Origin: Colwellia sp. PAMC 20917
GTDB lineage: Bacteria > Pseudomonadota > Gammaproteobacteria > Enterobacterales > Alteromonadaceae
Direction: 5' to 3'
Assembly (NCBI RefSeq): GCF_001767295.1
Contig: NZ_CP014944.1
Coordinates: 1,054,001 to 1,118,000, forward strand
Length of the DNA stretch: 64,000 bases
The notes under the pieces were generated by a model. That model saw nothing but the letters and a program-made list of their open reading frames with translations. It was not told where the DNA came from and made no database searches. Shown here piece after piece: positions 53,140 to 64,000 of this stretch. The number at the start of each line of letters is the position of its first letter. Positions within the stretch are counted from its first letter, which is position 1. Both the position numbers and the translations under genes were made by a program.

Positions 53140-54462
53140 ATGCAACTTTCTACCGCGCTTTCTTTAGTTAATTCAAATAACGTCACCGAGTTCCAAAACT
53201 TAGCAGAAATTTTGTCTCCAGAAATTATTAGTGCGGGACTAAAAGAACACGGAATATCTACCATTCGAAAGCGTAAGCTGCCTATGGAAAATATGGTGTG
53301 GGCTGTCATTGGCATGGCATTGTTTCGCAAGTTTCCAATGCGTCAAATGCTTAATCAGTTGGATATTATTTTACCCAGCGGTATCCCCTATGTTGCATCT
53401 AGTGCGGTCACGCAAGCGAGAAAAAAACTCGGTAGCAAAGTTATAGAAACAGTCTTTCAACAAACGCAACAACAATGGAACCATGATGCTAATCATGGTC
53501 AGTGGTGTGGTTTAAACCTTTTAGGTGTCGATGGTGTTGTGTGGCGAGTGCCCGATACCGATGAAAATAATGAAGAGTTTGCCAAAACAGGGACGCAACA
53601 TGGCAAAGCCAGTTACCCTCAAGTACGTATGGTGTGTCAGATGGAATTAACGAGCCATTTATTGACTAACAGTGTCTTTGATAGTGTTGAAGTTAACGAG
53701 ATGAATCTTGCGTTAGGGTTAATTGATAAAACACCTGATAATAGTTTAACGCTGTTCGACCGTGGATTTTATTCATTAGGCTTGTTACATCGCTGGCAAA
53801 GTACAGGTAACACAAGGCATTGGTTAATGCCACTCAAAAAAAATACACAATATGAAGTTATCAATAGTTTTGGAAGACAAGATAAATTAATCCAATTAAC
53901 CACAACACCTCAGTCACGAAAAAAGTTTCCAGAATTACCTAAAACGATGCAAGCACGGCTCATCACCAAAAAAGTGAAAGGAAAAGACCTTCAAATACTC
54001 ACTTCGATGACAGATCCTATGCGCTTTCCATCCGCTGATATTGTTGATTTATATGCCCACCGATGGGAAATTGAGTTGGGATTTAGGGAAATGAAACAGT
54101 CGCTATTGGACAATCGATTCACATTACGAAGTAATCAACCAGAGCTTATTAGGCAAGAGCTTTGGGGGATATTATTGGCTTATAATTTAATCCGTTATCA
54201 AATGGTATTAATGGCTAAATCGCTAGACGGTGTCCACCCCAATCAACTGAGTTTTAATGGCGCTTCAATGCATATTATTCACGAATTAACCCAGTTGTCA
54301 TTCTGCACGCCAGGTAACATTCCCAAATACACAATGAATATTACAAAGTCGGCTAAGCAATTCGTTTTACCCGGTAGGCGAGAACGGCAATATCCGAGAA
54401 TGTTGAAATGTTCAAAGAATAGGTACCCTGTTAAAAGTAAAAATGCCGTTCACCTTAAGTGA
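53140..54462 (+). CDS. IS4-family transposase
   Basis: 440 residues. The DDE triad is Asp131 (LGVDGVVW), Asp207 (LFDRGFYS) and Glu312, the last within the IS4 hallmark Y-(2)-R-(3)-E-(6)-K at Tyr305, Arg308, Glu312 and Lys319. The N-terminal domain (residues 1-110) and a basic C-terminus are present. No frameshift or stop, so it is likely active. Catalyses cut-and-paste transposition. Confidence 0.95.
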
Positions 54463-56053: not shown

Positions 56054-56403
56054 GGGGCGGATCTAGGATTCGACAAGATTCATGAAACCCGAGGTGCATG
56101 CCCAGGGGCGGTTTGCCTGGTAAAAAGCCGCAAAACTATAATTGCAAACGACGATACGTTCGCACTAGCCGCTTAGGCTAGCCATCGCCTCAAAAATTCT
56201 CCTATTGTTTAGAGGATCGATGGTCACCCCAAATAGGATAGCGAGGGAAGCACGCTTAAGGCTGAACCGCGAAATAGTATTAAGCTCACCATGACGAAGC
56301 CTGTCGATTGGCGTCTAATTGGTTAAACAAATAATCGACTAAGCATGTAGTACCAAGGATGTAGGCTTTTTGGACGGGGGTTCGATTCCCCCCCGCTCCA
56401 CCA
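56054..56403 (+). ncRNA. ssrA: Transfer-messenger RNA (tmRNA)
   Basis: 350 nt. The 5' end GGGGCGGATCTAGGATTCGAC and 3' end GGGGGTTCGATTCCCCCC...CCA form the tRNA-Ala-like domain; the acceptor stem pairs GGGGCGG with CCGCTCC with a G-U wobble at position 3, as in E. coli. CCA is encoded. The tag frame at 56144-56176 starts at the GCA resume codon and reads ANDDTFALAA then TAG. With SmpB it rescues stalled ribosomes and tags nascent chains for proteolysis. The 3' end is also the integration site of the following island. Confidence 0.97.
56370..56403 (+). other. Probable island attachment site (attL) at the ssrA 3' end
   Basis: The T-arm and acceptor end of ssrA are the classic core target of tyrosine integrases. 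Host synteny stops exactly here and island genes follow. The matching direct repeat (attR) must lie beyond the right edge, so the limits are inferred. Confidence 0.6.
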
Positions 56404-56933
56404 CATATAGAACGACAGAAGACTAACTAAATCATAGTGTTACGACTACTTACAGACCGTAAAACGACTGCAAATAGATTAAAAAGAACACTTTTAGGAC
56501 ACTCGCCAATAAATACGTGGCTTGTAGAAAGATTTTAGTTAGTTTTCTGTAGTTATTTCTATACTGTTTTTTATCATTAGAACACTCCTAGAACACTTAA
56601 AACTCTCTTAATTCATCTTAAAATCATTTTATTATGAGTGTAGTATTCGACTCTATTCTTTAGTTTTAAATATCAAGCTTAATAATATTATCAAACAAGT
56701 AAATCAGTATCATTGAACATATTTACTTCAATAAAATATTTTGCTCTCGTTTTAAAATGTTAATTAATGCAGTTCCTACTTTCATCCAATACGTCATAGC
56801 TATATAACATGGCAATTAATGACAGGTAAAGTAAGTATGGAAATACTTACCAAACAATGTGGTACTTGTGTTTGATAATTACCTTTGGATAAATCTATAC
56901 TCTTGAAAAGTTGGTTGATTTATTTAAAATGAA
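56404..56933. other. 530-nt AT-rich left edge of the island with paired 20-bp repeats
   Basis: No gene and no clear terminator after ssrA are visible. Two related 20-bp sequences (56485-56504 and 56579-56598, listed separately) are the main structure. The right end holds the 3' untranslated part of folE. No integrase remnant was recognised. Confidence 0.6.
56485..56598. repeat. Two direct repeats AGAACACTYYTAGRACACTY, possible integrase arm sites
   Basis: Copies at 56485-56504 and 56579-56598 agree at 16 of 20 positions with 94-nt spacing. Inside each, a RGAACACT-like heptad recurs after 11 bp (exactly GAACACT twice in the second copy), one helical turn apart. Their place just inside attL fits arm-type binding sites of a tyrosine recombinase or excisionase. 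Confidence 0.5.
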
Positions 56934-57482
56934 TCATGATTTAACTAACGACAACATCTCTTGTCTCGCAGAGGCATCTTCTCTCATTTCCCCTAACATT
57001 ACTGATGTTGTCATTGACGAGTTTTGCTTCTGTACGCCGCGCATCATCATACATAAATGCTGTGCTTCAATAATGACACCTACACCAATAGACCCTGTTA
57101 TTTCCTGTATAGATAAAGCTATTTCTCTAGCTAAGTTTTCTTGAATTTGTAATCGCCTGGCATACATGTCAACGATCCGAGCAAATTTTGACAAACCTAA
57201 AACTTTACCACTTGGGATATATGCAATGTGACATTTACCTATAAAAGGAAGCATATGGTGTTCACACATCGAATATAATTCGATGTTTTTTACCACTACC
57301 ATTTCATCAGCATCAGATTCAAATAAAGCACCGTTTACGACTTCATCAATATTTTGATTATACCCTTGAGTTAAAAACTTCATAGCTTTTGCTGCGCGCT
57401 TAGGCGTATCTACTAGGCCATCTCTATTAATATCTTCGCCAATTTTCTCAAGAATCTCTCGATAGTTATTTTCTATAGTCAC
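56934..57482 (-). CDS. folE: GTP cyclohydrolase I (island copy)
   Basis: 182 residues, type IA FolE. Converts GTP to 7,8-dihydroneopterin triphosphate, the first precursor of preQ0. Zinc ligands Cys73, His76 ([10 protein letters not shown]) and Cys144 ([12 protein letters not shown]) are intact, as is the SSMTTS substrate segment. GTG start with AGGA eight nt upstream. It is shorter than the E. coli enzyme (222) at the N-terminus, as in other FolE proteins. Encoded last in a minus-strand group with two unknown genes and facing the ssrA end. In this setting it probably feeds queD and not folate synthesis. Confidence 0.93.
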
Positions 57483-57502
57483 TTATTTATTCCTAGTTCA
57501 AA

Positions 57503-58477
57503 TTAATTGTTAAATTGAGATTCAACATACTTCCAAAGAGTAATATTTGGATCTTTTGTTTCTCTCCACACAGGGGAAGACAACCGTTTATCCATATAGA
57601 TTTCTAAAGCATTAAACATTTGAAAAACTTTTTTATCACCTTCAAAAGAGAAAAACTCAAAAAAATTATCTTCCAACATATCTAGGGTTTCAAAATCAAT
57701 AACCCCATTATTCAATGCCCATTGGATAGATGCAGCGGGGATAGTGTTCTTTCTAATACTAACAGGCATTATTGAATCAATACTTATGTTTAATTCTAAT
57801 GCATCACGTTTCTTATTCCTTAATACAAGTTCTTCTTTTTCTCTAAAAGACTCAACTAAATCTTCAAAGGCCTGTTCTCTTTGATTTTCAGACTCATTAG
57901 GAACTAACCTACAAAATTTTACAGCTTCAATTGCTCTATCATTACCATATAAAGTGAGCACTCTTTTCAAAAAATTTTTATTCAAAAAGAAGGTTTTACT
58001 TAAATAATTTAACATCCCAGTAAAGTTGCTAAATTCAAGGCCATCAAATTCAAATATTTCTTCAGGCAATACTTCTCTAACCGGTATACCGTCAATACAT
58101 AGATCCCACGCTTTAAAGTTGACTCTTTCTTTAGCAATAAGAAACATTTCCCAACCGCTTTTTTTGAAACCTTCAAACGCATTACCAGTAAAGTCTGATT
58201 CATTTAACTCTTTTTCTGTCCAATTTGAACCTATTGACAACTCTTTACTGCTGCGAATAATAATTTTATCTTTAATAGTTTGCTTTAGTTCTTCTAAAGA
58301 AGTCGCTAAGGGATGACATCCGTATGACTTGCATTCATCGCAAATAGGTATAGCAATTATATCTAGTCCGCCCTTTATTTCTGGGTCTTTGATTTCTACA
58401 TTTGTGTGAGAGTTTTCCCCACAGAACCAACATTTGAAGCGGCAATCAAACGGTGTATCAATTTCAAGTACATCCAT
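57503..58477 (-). CDS. Zinc-finger protein of unknown function in the dpd island
   Basis: 324 residues, not recognised beyond an N-terminal metal site: Cys12, Cys16, Cys19 (CRFKCWFCGENSH) and Cys46, Cys49, Cys54-His55 (CDECKSYGCH), best read as a treble-clef or zinc-ribbon. The remaining 270 residues are mainly helical and acidic-basic mixed with no membrane segment; a Glu/Arg-rich helix lies at about 205-235. Cys12-x3-Cys16-x2-Cys19 matches the radical-SAM spacing, but the protein lacks other QueE features. It lies 20 nt upstream of folE and 14 nt after the small gene, all three co-oriented. It may bind DNA or be an island regulator or effector; this is open. Confidence 0.75.
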   Translation of the reverse strand: MDVLEIDTPFDCRFKCWFCGENSHTNVEIKDPEIKGGLDIIAIPICDECKSYGCHPLATSLEELKQTIKDKIIIRSSKELSIGSNWTEKELNESDFTGNAFEGFKKSGWEMFLIAKERVNFKAWDLCIDGIPVREVLPEEIFEFDGLEFSNFTGMLNYLSKTFFLNKNFLKRVLTLYGNDRAIEAVKFCRLVPNESENQREQAFEDLVESFREKEELVLRNKKRDALELNISIDSIMPVSIRKNTIPAASIQWALNNGVIDFETLDMLEDNFFEFFSFEGDKKVFQMFNALEIYMDKRLSSPVWRETKDPNITLWKYVESQFNN

Positions 58478-58491
58478 GCTTAACTAATCCT

Positions 58492-58683
58492 TTAAATCAA
58501 GTTCATATATTCTTCAATTTTTTGTTCTGAAACTATATTAATCATTTCGCGAATACTGTTATGTTCAATTTCAATTCCAAGTGCTTCTTTTGCAATATTA
58601 ATAGCTTCTTCTTTACAACCATGATGATCACTTTGCAAAGTCAAAATAAGTTTAACCAATAATTTTTTCTGTTCAATTTCCAT
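58492..58683 (-). CDS. 63-residue protein of unknown function
   Basis: From ATG 58683, preceded by GGGGGG at good distance; a longer frame would run through the promoter. Short, helical, acidic protein (MEIEQKKLLVKLIL start, EEYMNLI end) with one His-His-Gly-Cys stretch. No family recognised. First gene of the minus-strand group, ending 14 nt before the zinc-finger gene, so probably co-expressed. Confidence 0.65.
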   Translation of the reverse strand: MEIEQKKLLVKLILTLQSDHHGCKEEAINIAKEALGIEIEHNSIREMINIVSEQKIEEYMNLI

Positions 58684-58830
58684 GATGTCCCCCCACTGAA
58701 TTAATTTCAATTTCGATATTGTTGACACTATAACAATCCATCGGAATTTAACAATCAATAGTAGTGGCTGGAGACTTAATTCTAGTGTACAATGCTGTTT
58801 TTATTAACAGTGACCTGAACTAGAAAAACT
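58684..58830. promoter_or_regulatory. Divergent island promoter region with inverted repeat
   Basis: 147 nt between the minus group and queD. ATTGTT-N8-AACAAT (58718-58737) is an inverted repeat. It overlaps a possible minus-strand promoter (TTGTTA at 58749-58754, 16-nt spacer, TATAGT at 58727-58732) and a TTGACA (58722-58727) on the plus strand with a poor -10. A single regulator could control both arms; this is inference from base patterns only. Confidence 0.4.
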
Positions 58831-59193
58831 ATGCATACAGCCATATATAAGGACTTTACGTTCGAAGCAGCACATAAATTACCTAATGTTCCAAATGGAC
58901 ATAAATGTGGGAGACTTCATGGACACTCATATAGAGTGAGAATTCATTTAGAAGGAACTGTAAATAAAGATTCCGGTTGGTTCATAGACTTTTCTGATGT
59001 AAAAACAATTTTCAAACCTATTTATAACCAGTTAGATCATAATTACCTAAATGACATCGAAGGGTTAGAAAACCCTACAGCCGAAGTTATTTCAAAATGG
59101 ATATGGGAACAATTAAAACCAATATTACCAGAGCTCTCTGCCATTGAACTAATGGAAACATGTACATGTGGTGTCGTTTACAAAGGTAACTAA
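58831..59193 (+). CDS. queD: 6-carboxy-5,6,7,8-tetrahydropterin synthase
   Basis: 120 residues, PTPS/QueD family, second step of preQ0 synthesis. Zinc ligands His15 (FEAAH), His30 and His32 (RLHGHSY), catalytic Cys26 in KCGRLHGH, the ENPTAE motif and the C-terminal Glu in METCTCG are present. ATG start. First gene of the plus-strand island operon; the next gene begins 3 nt after its stop. Confidence 0.95.
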
Positions 59194-59196
59194 TTT

Positions 59197-60108
59197 TTGA
59201 AGATCCATTTAATTACAAACTGCACAAACCTTAAGAAGAGTAATATTCAGGGTAAAGTGCAGGTAAAAGACCTTATGAAAGGTAACTCTCAAACCATAAT
59301 AAACTCTTGGTGGGAGCAACTTAAAAATGCTGAACAAAAGGTTTCGGCTGATGAAGTATACGCAGGTGACCATTGGAAAGTTGCTACGAGTATGATAACT
59401 CCTAATTTAGATTTGTGGGTTCTATCAGCAGGTTATGGCTTAATTCACAGTTCATCAAAAATTGGTTCTTATGACGCTACCTTTTCAAATGGAAGTGAAA
59501 ACTCAATTAACAAAACAGGGTTAACAAATAACGAATGGTGGAAAGCTTTACACCAGATAAGAAGTAGCGAAAGATTTAAATGCCACTCGCTTCATTCATT
59601 GGTTTCAACTCATACTGATGACGTTTTTATTATTGCGGCTTCTCCTGATTATGTAAGAGTGATACAAGACGAACTAAAACAATTAGTTTCAGAAAAAAAA
59701 TTAACAAATAAAAACTTCTTTATTGTTTCAAGTATTAATAACATTAACAAAACACTCACCCCATATCTTTTAGAGTCAAAAGCGGATTTCTGTAGCACGC
59801 TAAAAGGCGGTAGAGTTTCCTTAAATATTAGGCTAGCTAAATATTTATTAGAAGACTTTAAAGTTAATATATTCGATAGTAAAAGTGTAACGAACAAATA
59901 CAATTTTCTTAAAAAAAATGCAATAAAGTTGTCCGCTATAAAGCGTAAGAACATTTCAGATGAAGAGGTTCGTAGTTTCATTAGAAAAGAATTAAATAGT
60001 GCTCAAGTAGCTAAGATATCCGCTACCATGTTGATAAAAAAATTAAGAAATGAAAACTTAGCTTGCGAACAAAAAAGATTTACTCGACTACTCAAAGAGT
60101 TATCTTAA
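59197..60108 (+). CDS. YaaA/DUF6884-like protein, candidate DpdC
   Basis: 303 residues with TTG start, 3 nt after queD. The N-terminal half has the YaaA/DUF6884 pattern: LITNCTNLKK at the start, then LWVLSAGYGLIHSSSKIGSYDATFS near residues 72-95 (abridged: SAGYGL and YDATF are the key parts). The C-terminal 100 residues are Lys-rich. DpdC in Salmonella hydrolyses inserted dPreQ0 to the 7-amido form. I believe such a YaaA-like protein accompanies dpdA in known clusters, but cannot verify that this one is DpdC. It lies directly before dpdA in the same operon. Confidence 0.6.
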   Translation: MKIHLITNCTNLKKSNIQGKVQVKDLMKGNSQTIINSWWEQLKNAEQKVSADEVYAGDHWKVATSMITPNLDLWVLSAGYGLIHSSSKIGSYDATFSNGSENSINKTGLTNNEWWKALHQIRSSERFKCHSLHSLVSTHTDDVFIIAASPDYVRVIQDELKQLVSEKKLTNKNFFIVSSINNINKTLTPYLLESKADFCSTLKGGRVSLNIRLAKYLLEDFKVNIFDSKSVTNKYNFLKKNAIKLSAIKRKNISDEEVRSFIRKELNSAQVAKISATMLIKKLRNENLACEQKRFTRLLKELS

Positions 60109-60180
60109 TGTGGTTATTTAGTAAGAAAACCTTAATAAATAACCCGCAATATCCAACAACAAAGAATATATAGGTTTAAT

Positions 60181-61593
60181 GTGACAATTTTTAATTATTA
60201 CTTTCCAGACAACTTAGATTTTGTCGACCCTAAATTTAATGGTATTACCAACGAAAAAACTAAATATCATCGAAAGTATGATGATGACGCCTACCCTCAT
60301 GAAATATTAAAGGAATTGCCTTACAACGGCATGCTTGTTTCGTTAGCGGGTGTTGGCACAATGCAAAAGAAAGGGAAGTACTACACTCAAGAGCTCACTG
60401 AAGATTTCTATTATTATGGTGCTAAGAAATTTTTAAGACTAAACCAAGAAAAATTTTCAAATGTATTGCTTATGGGGGATTGTGGCGCATTTGATTATGT
60501 AAATGAACCTGAGCCACCGTTTACAATTGATGAGTTAATTGAATTCTATGACCGTGGAGGATTCGATTGCGGTATATCACTCGATCACATCGTATTCCCG
60601 TATGCCAAGGATGATGAAGCATTAAAAGCTATGGATTATGCTGACATAAGAGAAGCTGAACGCAGAATAAAAATAACTCTAGATAATGCCGTTCTATTTT
60701 TAGAACGTTCTAAGATTCTTAATACTTCTAAAGGTAAGTCTTTCATTCCTTATGGCGTAGCTCATGGTTTTAGCAAAGAGTCTTTTATTAGTTCGGTGAA
60801 AAAGTTAGAAGAGATCGGATACACTCATATTACAATCGGCGGTATGATCAAATCAAAAACGCCTGACTTATTAGATTTATTAGAAACCCTCTCTTCTATT
60901 AAAAAGAAAGAGACGCAGTTTCACTTACTGGGAATCTGTAGATTTGAGAATATACCTGCATACGCAAAATATGGTGTAACTAGCGCAGATAGTACTTCCC
61001 CATTAATGCAAGGCATTAAAGCTGGAAAATACTTCGAATTTAATGATGATGCCCATGAGCTTATTCAATCATTATCAATAAGAATCCGTCAATGTGATCA
61101 TGATAATGTTCAGAAGTTAATTGATAAACATCGCCATGAAATTCGAAGCCTAGTAGTTAAAATGCTAAACAATAATGAAATTGATATCGACCTTTCCAAC
61201 AATGCACTATCTACAAATGAATGTGTAAAAAGGCTTGAAACTGATTGTATTAAAAAATTAAAACAATATGACGCAACCGGCGAACACTTTAACGCTACAT
61301 TTAAGGCTCTAATGGCTTATGAAAAAGTAACTACGGCCGACCATTTAGCAGAAATAACGCCAGTTAAACAAGCTATTCTAAACAAAGACAAGTTAAGAGT
61401 TAAAAAGTTTTTGTTAGAAAGGCCCTGGAAAACTTGTACATGCGGAGTTTGTGAAAGTGGAATAATGAACATCATTTTTCGTTCTAACCAAACTAACCGT
61501 CGTAGAGGTATACATAACTTAGCTATGGTGACAAAACATAAAGATAAAGTTATTGATGACATGAAAAGTACGATGATTAAGGCTAATAAATAA
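60181..61593 (+). CDS. dpdA: DNA-guanine transglycosylase DpdA (TgtA5 family)
   Basis: 470 residues, TGT-like TIM barrel. Key sites line up with bacterial TGT: Asp100 (MGDCGAF, for DSGG), Asp135 (SLDHIV), Gly-Gly-Met 220-222 (TIGGMI), nucleophile-like Asp270 (SADSTSP) and zinc ligands Cys419, Cys421, Cys424 (CTCGVC) with His445. It differs from tRNA TGT around the substrate loop and has an inserted helical region (about 290-400). In dpd clusters this enzyme exchanges guanine for preQ0 in DNA. GTG start with AGG upstream. The stop overlaps the dpdB start by one base (TAATG). Confidence 0.92.
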   Translation: MTIFNYYFPDNLDFVDPKFNGITNEKTKYHRKYDDDAYPHEILKELPYNGMLVSLAGVGTMQKKGKYYTQELTEDFYYYGAKKFLRLNQEKFSNVLLMGDCGAFDYVNEPEPPFTIDELIEFYDRGGFDCGISLDHIVFPYAKDDEALKAMDYADIREAERRIKITLDNAVLFLERSKILNTSKGKSFIPYGVAHGFSKESFISSVKKLEEIGYTHITIGGMIKSKTPDLLDLLETLSSIKKKETQFHLLGICRFENIPAYAKYGVTSADSTSPLMQGIKAGKYFEFNDDAHELIQSLSIRIRQCDHDNVQKLIDKHRHEIRSLVVKMLNNNEIDIDLSNNALSTNECVKRLETDCIKKLKQYDATGEHFNATFKALMAYEKVTTADHLAEITPVKQAILNKDKLRVKKFLLERPWKTCTCGVCESGIMNIIFRSNQTNRRRGIHNLAMVTKHKDKVIDDMKSTMIKANK

Positions 61594-62792
61594 TGAAACC
61601 AGTCATTTTAAAAATCCAAGTAATTAAAAAAATTGTTAATAACGTCACTGTATTTTCTGGTTGGGTAGAAGGCAAAAAAGTAAGAGATATCGCTAAAATC
61701 GTCCATATAACAAGGGAAGGTAAATATATCCATGGATATCAAAGAAGCGAACTACCAAAACATATTGAGTCTATAAAAGATTACGTAGAATCTCCTAAGT
61801 CTACTATTTTGGCAAATCTCGTTATTGGCTTTAATAAATCAGTTACCTTTACTCCTTTAGAAGGTCAAACTGAGTTTGGACATTTAGAAGTTCCATACTT
61901 CCCTGAATCTCCATCACAAGAGTTACCAGGATCAATTGTAGATGGTCAACAACGTTCAGGGGGAGTTAAAAATAGTTGTCATGAAAGTTATCCTTTGCCT
62001 GTTTCTATTTTCATTTCTGAAGATGAAAATGACTATATTCAGCAATTTCTGATTCTTAATCTCGGCAAGCCATTAACATCCGTTCAGTTAAATGCTTTAG
62101 CACTTAATGATGACATTTATAAGCCACCGGCATTAGCTATAAAGGCCTTTCCACTATCTATTTCAGAGGAACTAGGGTTTGGGGATAATAAAAATGGAAC
62201 GCCTCCTTTAAAGGGACTTATCAAATCGAATGGCAACCCTTTAGGAAAAATTGCTGAATCATCAATTACTGAGTTTGTCTCTAACGTCGAAAGAATGATC
62301 TTGAAGTCTATTAACGTAAGAGTCCATCAAGACTTAACGAAAGAGTCAAAGCAGTTGTTTGCTCAAATAATTAATCACTTTTGGATAGCGGTTACAATAG
62401 TGTTCGAAACTGAATGGAAAAAGACCTCTAAAAGCATGAAAGATACTTATATCATTCATGGCACAAGCATATTTGGTTTCTCATTTCTATGTCGCCACAT
62501 GATAAGAGTATTTCTCGAAGACAAACCTTTGAACGCAGTAAACATTCCCACTATTGAATTTTTTACTCAAGAGTTAAAGCTTATATCTAATAAATGCCAT
62601 TTCAGTAAAACATCATGGAATTTGGGACTTATAAGAAGTGATGAAGAAGGTGGTGATGATATAAAGTTTTCTCGAAGGTGGCATGATTTTCAAAATACAA
62701 CCTCAGAAAAGCAACTATTTGCCGGAAACTTATTAAAAATTTATGAAGTAGCTAAAGAATTTAAGAAAGATTACGATGTTTACTTTAGCTAA
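61593..62792 (+). CDS. dpdB: DGQHR-domain protein DpdB
   Basis: 399 residues with the DGQQR motif at residues 117-121 in SIVDGQQRSGG, typical of the ParB/DndB-like DGQHR superfamily. In Salmonella, DpdB is needed together with DpdA for preQ0 insertion into DNA. The middle carries ILNLGKPLTSVQLNAL, the usual second block of these proteins. Translationally coupled to dpdA by the TAATG overlap; queC follows after 20 nt. All parts of the domain appear intact. Confidence 0.88.
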   Translation: MKPVILKIQVIKKIVNNVTVFSGWVEGKKVRDIAKIVHITREGKYIHGYQRSELPKHIESIKDYVESPKSTILANLVIGFNKSVTFTPLEGQTEFGHLEVPYFPESPSQELPGSIVDGQQRSGGVKNSCHESYPLPVSIFISEDENDYIQQFLILNLGKPLTSVQLNALALNDDIYKPPALAIKAFPLSISEELGFGDNKNGTPPLKGLIKSNGNPLGKIAESSITEFVSNVERMILKSINVRVHQDLTKESKQLFAQIINHFWIAVTIVFETEWKKTSKSMKDTYIIHGTSIFGFSFLCRHMIRVFLEDKPLNAVNIPTIEFFTQELKLISNKCHFSKTSWNLGLIRSDEEGGDDIKFSRRWHDFQNTTSEKQLFAGNLLKIYEVAKEFKKDYDVYFS

Positions 62793-62812
62793 TTAGGAAG
62801 GGAATTTAAGAA

Positions 62813-63472
62813 ATGAAAAAGCTTGTTGTTATATATTCTGGAGGCATGGACTCTTTTACGGCTTTAAACAAAGCAGTAAAAGAAGGCTTTGATGTATATG
62901 CTCTATCTTTCAATTATGGTCAAAAGCATAATAAAGAACTCATTTACGCACAAAATGTGTGTAAAGAACTTAATGTTCCACATAAAATTTTAGATATCAA
63001 ATCTATCTCAACATTATTCACCAGTTCGTCACTAGTTTCTGACGATATTAATGTCCCTGATGGCCATTATGAAGCTGAAAATATGAAATCGACGGTTGTC
63101 CCAAACCGTAACATGATTCTCATCTCATTGGCCATTGGTTACGCCGTGGATATTGAGGCTGAAGGTGTTTGGTATGGCGCTCACTCTGGTGATCATTTAA
63201 TTTATCCTGATTGCAGACCTGAGTTTGTGAAAGTAATGGACCAAGCTTCCAAAGTAGCTAACTTTGAACCGGTCTATGTTCATGCTCCTTATTTAGATAC
63301 TGATAAGATAGGTATTCTTAAAGATGGCCTATCGATGGGATTAGATTATTATCAAACATGGACCTGTTATAAAGGGCAGGAAAAGGCATGTGGTAAATGT
63401 GGTTCTTGTGTAGAGAGGTTAGAAGCTTTTGAAAAAAATAATTGTAACGATCCTATTACTTATACAAACTAA
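62813..63472 (+). CDS. queC: 7-cyano-7-deazaguanine synthase
   Basis: 219 residues, PP-loop ATPase that makes preQ0 from 7-carboxy-7-deazaguanine and ammonia. SGGMDS (residues 9-14) is the PP-loop; four Cys (185, 193, 196, 199; CGKCGSC) bind zinc. ATG with AGGAAGGG upstream. It closes the preQ0 set apart from queE, which is not in the window. Last recognised gene of the plus-strand operon queD-yaaA-like-dpdA-dpdB-queC. Confidence 0.95.
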
Positions 63473-63901
63473 TAATATAATGATAACAGAGTTATGGTCT
63501 AATTCTGTTATCACAAATCTATTCCCCCCTTTACTAGCTTTGTTCTTTTTCTATAAATTATTTTTATGCTTGTTCTTGAAAAATTTTTCACTGATAAATT
63601 CTAATTTATTACCCATATTAATACAAAGAACTGCGCCGTTAAGACCCTTAGTTCAAAATTTTCAAAAGTTTTGTTTGCTTGTTTGTGCTTTGTTAATTAA
63701 TCAGGAGAATTCGGTGATTAAAATACTTAAATTGGACCATAAATATACACTTCACTGCTTAATAATATGAGCTTATATAAACAAATAACGAGAAAGTTTG
63801 ATGTGGTAACACCACTTATTTGAAAATGATAAAAATTTTATTATATTCATGAAAGTTCAATGGTAACATTAGCTTACCAAAAAAATATAGGAAAAGAATA
63901 C
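63473..63901. other. 429-nt AT-rich intergenic region after queC
   Basis: No convincing gene. A small membrane-like frame that overlaps the queC end is not supported. Near the right end is an imperfect direct repeat, GAAAGTTTGATGTGGTAACA (from 63792) and GAAAGTTCAATGGTAACA (from 63851), the first with a small GTGGT-AAC-ACCAC hairpin, a possible operator for the next gene. Confidence 0.5.
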
Positions 63902-64000
63902 ATGAGTGAATTTAGATTCATCGCAGAAAGTATTTTACAAAAAATGCATGAACTTACCGAAGGGTTTGAGGGTGAGCGTGAAAACTTTATAAAGGATAGA
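63902..64000 (+). CDS. Island protein, 5' end only
   Basis: ATG 63902 with AGGA upstream opens a frame of 33 codons (MSEFRFIAESILQKMHELTE...) that runs off the window. Mainly helical and acidic. Too short to recognise; by position it could be a further dpd gene. Confidence 0.6.
   Translation, partial: MSEFRFIAESILQKMHELTEGFEGERENFIKDR

Follow-up and report, generated by a model that had tools for sequence, protein, structure and literature searches.

What do genes for the synthesis of 7-cyano-7-deazaguanine (preQ0) serve beside a paralogue of tRNA-guanine transglycosylase (TGT) directly downstream of the transfer-messenger RNA (tmRNA) gene ssrA of Colwellia sp. PAMC 20917, and do all parts of this locus share one history? 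The stretch of DNA analysed here, referred to as the window, comprises 64,000 nucleotides (positions 1,054,001-1,118,000 of the 4.68-Mb single-contig genome, NZ_CP014944.1; genome position = window position + 1,054,000), and its last 7.6 kb, directly 3' of ssrA, hold folE, ORF324, ORF88 (ORF, open reading frame), queD, dpdC, dpdA, dpdB and queC (Table 1). A preliminary description, made from the letters of the window alone, had read this region as a 7-deazapurine-in-DNA (Dpd) island. According to the literature on Dpd, which is cited here and below from excerpts of the papers, FolE, QueD, QueE and QueC make preQ0 and DpdA together with DpdB places preQ0 in DNA, while DpdC forms 7-amido-7-deazaguanine (ADG) and dpdD-K constitute a restriction operon (PMC11888242, PMC12839542, PMC12707154). 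Sequence comparisons make it very probable that the locus is a complete Dpd system on a 76.7-kb island at ssrA, which became a mosaic when, later than the split of the species, its dpdA-dpdB pair was exchanged with a different lineage of Colwellia.

The gene set was assessed with profile models, alignments and the sequence beyond the window. The folE, queD and queC genes named in the preliminary description each pass at least one NCBIfam equivalog cut-off, and the neighbouring TGT paralogue is recognized as DpdA (NCBIfam NF041059, 495.9 bits against a cut-off of 200; PADLOC, 497 bits), the sole solved structure matched by its sequence being 7ui4, 'DNA-guanine transglycosylase' (E 3.4e-75). The claim of an intact catalytic Asp and intact zinc residues was borne out, as D100, D270, C419, C421, C424 and H445 are shared without exception by the 31 DpdA sequences aligned (taken from 83 available); by transfer from tRNA TGT we take these residues to be the catalytic Asp pair and the zinc ligands. 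The protein that had been described as a DGQHR protein overlapping the paralogue by one base is DpdB (PADLOC, 804 bits), in which the motif reads DGQQR, a reading common to all 83 DpdB rows that were examined. The gene list given earlier was correct for the genes that it named and overlooked dpdC (59197-60108). The search for dpdD-dpdK beyond position 64,000 that the preliminary description had proposed retrieved, on the strand opposite to dpdA and in this order, dpdD, dpdK, dpdJ, dpdI, dpdH, dpdG, dpdF and dpdE (to 1136513), followed by queE. All eleven dpd genes (dpdA-K) are thus present by PADLOC match, most over nearly the full model length, and FolE, QueD, QueC and QueE, each above at least one curated cut-off, complete the preQ0 set on the island, the dpd part amounting to about 27 kb of the larger element. 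By gene identity the Dpd cluster is complete, comprising dpdA-K and the full preQ0 pathway, and its chemistry and restriction would be those of the studied Dpd clusters.

Two observations weigh against this assignment: DpdB stays under the NCBIfam DpdB cut-off (NF041060, 180 versus 300), and in DpdK a nuclease motif was not established, with two short HxK matches only. Whether the restriction half is active at all has to be considered in this connection, since a modification-only or decayed cluster, in which the mark serves another role, could look similar. The divergent dpdI, which is the weakest PADLOC match (72 bits, partial), and a 74-aa ORF between queC and dpdD that resembles a piece of a transposase (judged by eye, no search made) would fit such decay, but DpdD, E, F, G, H and J are each encoded by one uninterrupted frame that spans nearly the whole PADLOC model, and Walker A and DExH helicase motifs are kept in DpdJ, DpdF and DpdE. 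Decay of the restriction half is therefore considered unlikely.

The Dpd cluster is carried on an integrase-borne genomic island at the 3' end of ssrA. Exact 31-bp direct repeats of the ssrA 3' end lie 76,675 bp apart and delimit an element of 76.7 kb, of which the Dpd cluster forms the left end, and the gene of a 383-aa tyrosine recombinase (PF00589 and PF12167), which has an arm-type DNA-binding domain, stops 157 bp short of attR. The earlier statement on the start of the island, placed exactly at the ssrA 3' end, holds for the element, as the repeat ends at 56403; the nearest of the linked genes, folE, has its end at 56934, at a distance of 531 bp. The ssrA-end motif or a tmRNA was found beside 7 of the 13 best integrase relatives (36-41% identical, one a fragment) and the motif beside 0 of the next 16, two of which have a different motif ending in TCCACCA. 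An empty ssrA site was recognized in two relatives, Colwellia sp. BRX10-3 and genome G437, because the sequence 3' of ssrA there resembles the sequence right of attR here. The ssrA-end pattern matched 9 of 29 other SmpB loci of the family and this right flank was seen only in G437; the empty site of BRX10-3 came from another search than these 29 loci. Against the empty sites it has to be said that the BRX10-3 alignment crosses ssrA and continues right of attR for only about 105 bp, with no further match listed, and that the loci of the relatives did not show the next right-flank genes adjacent to ssrA.

The dpd genes of this island have their closest counterparts in different organisms, depending on the module. 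The cluster of BRX10-3 (locus L049), which lies on a contig other than that of the empty ssrA, has the block from folE to queC in common with the window at 84.8% DNA identity. This likeness stops at queC: a single 288-bp patch aligns in the restriction part, and DpdD, K, J and I are only 24-38% identical between the two. The cluster of Alishewanella tabrizica (L100) has the same layout over the fetched part, with queC at 75%, and holds the closest relatives of DpdJ, DpdK and DpdD (54%, 58% and 44%), while its DpdA, DpdB and DpdC are only 38%, 28% and 32% identical to those of the window and its DpdI 32%. Correspondingly, DpdA, B and C group the window with BRX10-3, and DpdJ and DpdD group it with Alishewanella. 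In trees of 33 rows (2 of the 34 loci with a DpdJ match were dropped, being shorter than 700 aa), DpdJ rejects the pairing of window and BRX10-3 (log-likelihood difference, dlnL, 242; p 1e-73) and DpdA that of window and Alishewanella (dlnL 159, p 2e-6). Approximately unbiased tests on 9 hand-chosen gammaproteobacterial rows (8 for dpdC, 4 for queC) gave the same picture, dpdA, dpdB and dpdC rejecting the pairing with Alishewanella and dpdJ and dpdD that with BRX10-3.

Several results weigh against so clear a division. DpdK neither shows nor rejects the pairing with Alishewanella (p 0.60) and rejects that with BRX10-3 weakly (p 0.011), queC leaves the matter undecided (p 0.10, 4 rows), and the branch joining window and BRX10-3 in DpdA has a support of 88-90 in small trees and 99 in the large one, being limited because Psychromonas is close too. 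Moreover, the comparison of restriction genes covers the four proteins D, K, J and I within the fetched flanks of BRX10-3 and Alishewanella. Distances across 28 loci correlated more strongly within than across modules (A-B 0.87, J-K 0.75, A-J 0.41); family-wide independence of the modules was, however, not derived from these values, because best tblastn matches mix paralogues (many pairs have DpdA above 80% and 'DpdB' at about 31%). The mosaic rests on the gammaproteobacterial set and on the synonymous divergence (dS, synonymous substitutions per synonymous site) described below.

Within the block common to the window and BRX10-3, divergence is 5.5% in the segment 60170-62886 and 22.8% outside it (dlnL 205), and this segment starts 11 bp 5' of dpdA and ends 94 bp past dpdB, inside queC. 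The dpdA-dpdB pair has about 94% DNA identity to that of BRX10-3, with proteins 97-98% identical, dS of 0.27 and 0.28 and nonsynonymous divergence (dN) of 0.011-0.013. The other genes of the block gave dS values of 0.86 (ORF88), 0.89 (folE), 1.76 (queD), 1.18 (dpdC) and 1.07 (queC), that of ORF324 not being computable, and nearby chromosomal ORFs a median of 1.5 (range 0.69-2.4, computable for 9 of 14). At four-fold degenerate sites, 230 of 294 positions of dpdA-dpdB are identical versus 636 of 1409 in the 14 chromosomal ORFs (Fisher p 5e-26), and folE, queD, dpdC and queC together have 140 of 250; the counts 230/294 and 140/250 were derived from rounded percentages. Recent horizontal exchange of the dpdA-dpdB pair, in either direction, is the best explanation for this pattern.

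The low divergence could also stem from unusual constraint at synonymous positions or from a mutation rate that is locally reduced, and the very low dN, as under strong selection, together with one nearby chromosomal ORF at a dS of 0.69, would be in keeping with this. Compared with Psychromonas, however, dpdA and dpdB are not specially conserved, their four-fold identities of 31% and 42% lying in the range of queC (33%), queD (33%) and dpdC (42%), and the low-divergence segment ends near gene borders; synonymous constraint is hence a poor explanation, to which we give very little credence. The exchange is itself weakened by the reference used: the 14 chromosomal ORFs all lie within a single stretch of about 30 kb, are mechanical ORF calls and were kept at more than 50% identity and more than 70% coverage, dS was obtained from 9 of the 14, and the lowest of these is the 0.69 just mentioned. 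No report of dpdA-dpdB exchange was found in the literature, a weak negative as the main Dpd papers lay outside that search. A natural cluster with two writers was seen in Moritella dasanensis (NZ_AKXQ01000009.1; L052, L099), where two different dpdA-dpdB pairs, one akin to that of the window (DpdA about 63% identical) and the other unlike it (37%), lie around one restriction set composed of dpdE-F-G-H and dpdI-J-K-D, about 1.9 kb between the fetched pieces being unread.

Exchange of dpdA-dpdB with another Colwellia lineage can be joined with the gene content to the following course of events. A tyrosine integrase would have inserted the island at the 3' end of ssrA, and the island's FolE, QueD, QueE and QueC would convert GTP to preQ0. 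As in the studied Dpd clusters, DpdA with DpdB is predicted to replace chosen guanines of the host DNA by preQ0, DpdC to turn this preQ0 into ADG, and DpdD-K to attack unmarked DNA. The dpdA-dpdB pair would have been swapped as one piece beneath restriction genes that differ in ancestry, and such a swap suggests that the two genes function together, as a unit that can be parted from restriction. A wider and tentative idea, which we regard as possible and short of probable, is that dpdA-dpdB may be a plug-in writer cassette swapped beneath unrelated restriction operons, like the specificity subunits of type I restriction-modification systems, for which exchange of specificity genes provides the analogy (PMC7394358). 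In that case the restriction machinery would respond to the presence of 7-deazaguanine, with no fixed sequence of its own, or else use the site set by DpdA-DpdB.

For the distribution of DpdA, a genome collection described as comprising 84,980 species was scanned, which yielded 336 stretches with DpdA relatives, and the best 80 (79 loci) were kept. Among these best 80, relatives 62-97% identical to the DpdA of the window occur in five, from Colwellia, Psychromonas, Vibrio, Moritella and Photobacterium, the next being 37% identical. These are mainly marine genera. The window DpdA and its five closest relatives form a clade of six with a support of 100, and 83 DpdA are set apart from 9 tRNA TGT with a Shimodaira-Hasegawa-like approximate likelihood ratio (SH-aLRT) of 100 in a quick search with long branches (one of 10 tRNA TGT rows, L036, was dropped as too short). 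The tree thereby separates the window DpdA from the tRNA TGT clade and puts it into a divergent clade of DpdA, and this is the placement that the preliminary description required of its TGT paralogue. It is scarcely credible that the paralogue acts on tRNA in a neighbourhood for queuosine synthesis, as the adjoining preQ0 genes and a weak match to the Pfam TGT model under its cut-off might be taken to indicate, since the genome has a separate tRNA TGT (3434670, 561 bits), the PADLOC, NCBIfam and 7ui4 matches are specific, and the host has its own FolE2 (2691213-2692082) and a second queC, both above their cut-offs, the latter adjoining a QueE-like match below cut-off; the island folE (genome 1110943-1111476) is the only type I FolE found in the genome.

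DpdA above the cut-off was found in 6 of 394 genomes of the order, this genome included. Against five enterobacterial Dpd clusters, the DpdA of the window is 37-38% and its DpdB 31% identical, which fits the earlier suggestion of an acquisition separate from the enterobacterial leuX islands. In the 16 of 79 dpd loci that were scanned for flanking RNA genes, tRNA-Leu(caa) was found in 4, tmRNA in 1, tRNA-Sec in 1 and none in 10. The ssrA site, contrasted earlier with leuX, does differ from it, but it may not be unique to this island because the dpd cluster of Tolumonas osonensis (L058, 17708-18068) is also near ssrA and smpB. In sphingomonad loci, for example L081 and L111, DpdA is 91% identical while the best DpdB matches are just 32% alike, a pattern of either two DpdB classes or paralogues.

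Two further genes of the block, ORF324 and ORF88, were also followed. ORF324 starts with a CxxxCxxC motif and has a second CxxC; as a candidate for a new dpd-specific component it was rejected, since 104 of the order's 394 genomes (its own included) contain relatives, one of which also lies elsewhere in the same genome. It occurs in 1 of 79 dpd loci, with one more near the DpdA of genome G329. Plasmids and phages gave no match to ORF324 and a pattern scan of viral contigs confirmed none; Pfam yielded nothing above cut-off and the PDB nothing credible. In BRX10-3 it is frameshifted, where an error of the draft assembly is possible. ORF88 recurs in 3 of the 79 other dpd loci.

The same element carries two further defence systems. 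A type III-D CRISPR-Cas system (genome 1148441-1165663) consists of Cas1, Cas2, a 24-repeat array, Cas10, type III-D Cas5 and Cas7 genes, Csx19 and Cas6, accompanied by two CARF proteins, one of them PD-(D/E)xK, and a DarT/DarG pair (genome 1153721-1155051) separates the CRISPR array from the Cas10 operon. A related DarT/DarG pair is located about 1.1 kb from folE in the dpd cluster of BRX10-3 (L049, 4368-5692). The right part of the island has an MscL channel gene with a similar-looking neighbour (genome 1179990-1180990; only MscL was scanned). Outside the element, two 440-aa ORFs flank it (window 53140-54462 and genome 1206429-1207751); their first 35 residues are identical, and the first of them matches IS4-type transposase models.

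Table 1. Positions of the features at the ssrA locus of Colwellia sp. PAMC 20917
Feature	Position	Strand	Remark
ssrA (tmRNA)	window 56054..56403	+	integration target, gene still intact
attL, 31-bp repeat within ssrA 3' end	window 56373..56403	+	exact second copy elsewhere
attR, exact copy of the 31-bp repeat	genome 1187048-1187078		
folE (GTP cyclohydrolase I)	window 56934..57482	-	curated NCBIfam equivalog cut-off passed
ORF324, cysteine-motif protein	window 57503..58477	-	
ORF88, small protein upstream of queD	window 58492..58758	-	
queD	window 58831..59193	+	TIGR03367 112.5 bits, cut-off 89.25
dpdC (DUF6884)	window 59197..60108	+	PADLOC 333.7 bits
dpdA, DNA-guanine transglycosylase	window 60181..61593	+	NCBIfam NF041059, PADLOC
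dpdB (DGQHR/DndB-like)	window 61593..62792	+	PADLOC
queC	window 62813..63472	+	TIGR00364 201.2 bits, cut-off 150.3
Low-divergence segment versus Colwellia BRX10-3	window 60170..62886		putatively exchanged writer cassette
dpdD	genome 1118824-1121052		strand opposite to dpdA
QueE	genome 1136731-1137411		TIGR04322 354 bits, cut-off 200

In the excerpts consulted, Dpd islands are described as widespread, with 37,198 windows, 2,335 of them unique (PMC11888242), and the enterobacterial site is given as leuX (PMC12707154, PMC11888242). The leuX island of Salmonella Montevideo likewise has dpdA-C, dpdD-K and preQ0 genes on an integrated island (PMC11888242, PMC12707154), whereas the element analysed here sits at ssrA and has the full preQ0 pathway, type III-D CRISPR-Cas and DarT/DarG. 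The BRIGADE systems of halophilic archaea share 7-deazaguanine genes with YprA-like helicases (PMC12458937, in excerpt) and, by description, are set apart by the full bacterial dpdA-K set present here. A review of 2025 states that work on ADG-linked restriction has gone no further than a lowered transformation efficiency (PMC12707154).

Dpd islands were already known, and the present one is one more among thousands, distinguished by a divergent DpdA clade, a site other than leuX and the two further defence systems on the same element. The mosaic matters more than the cluster itself: natural swaps would pair near-identical writers with different restriction genes, and with such pairs of clusters one can test which of the two, DpdA-DpdB or DpdD-K, determines sequence specificity.

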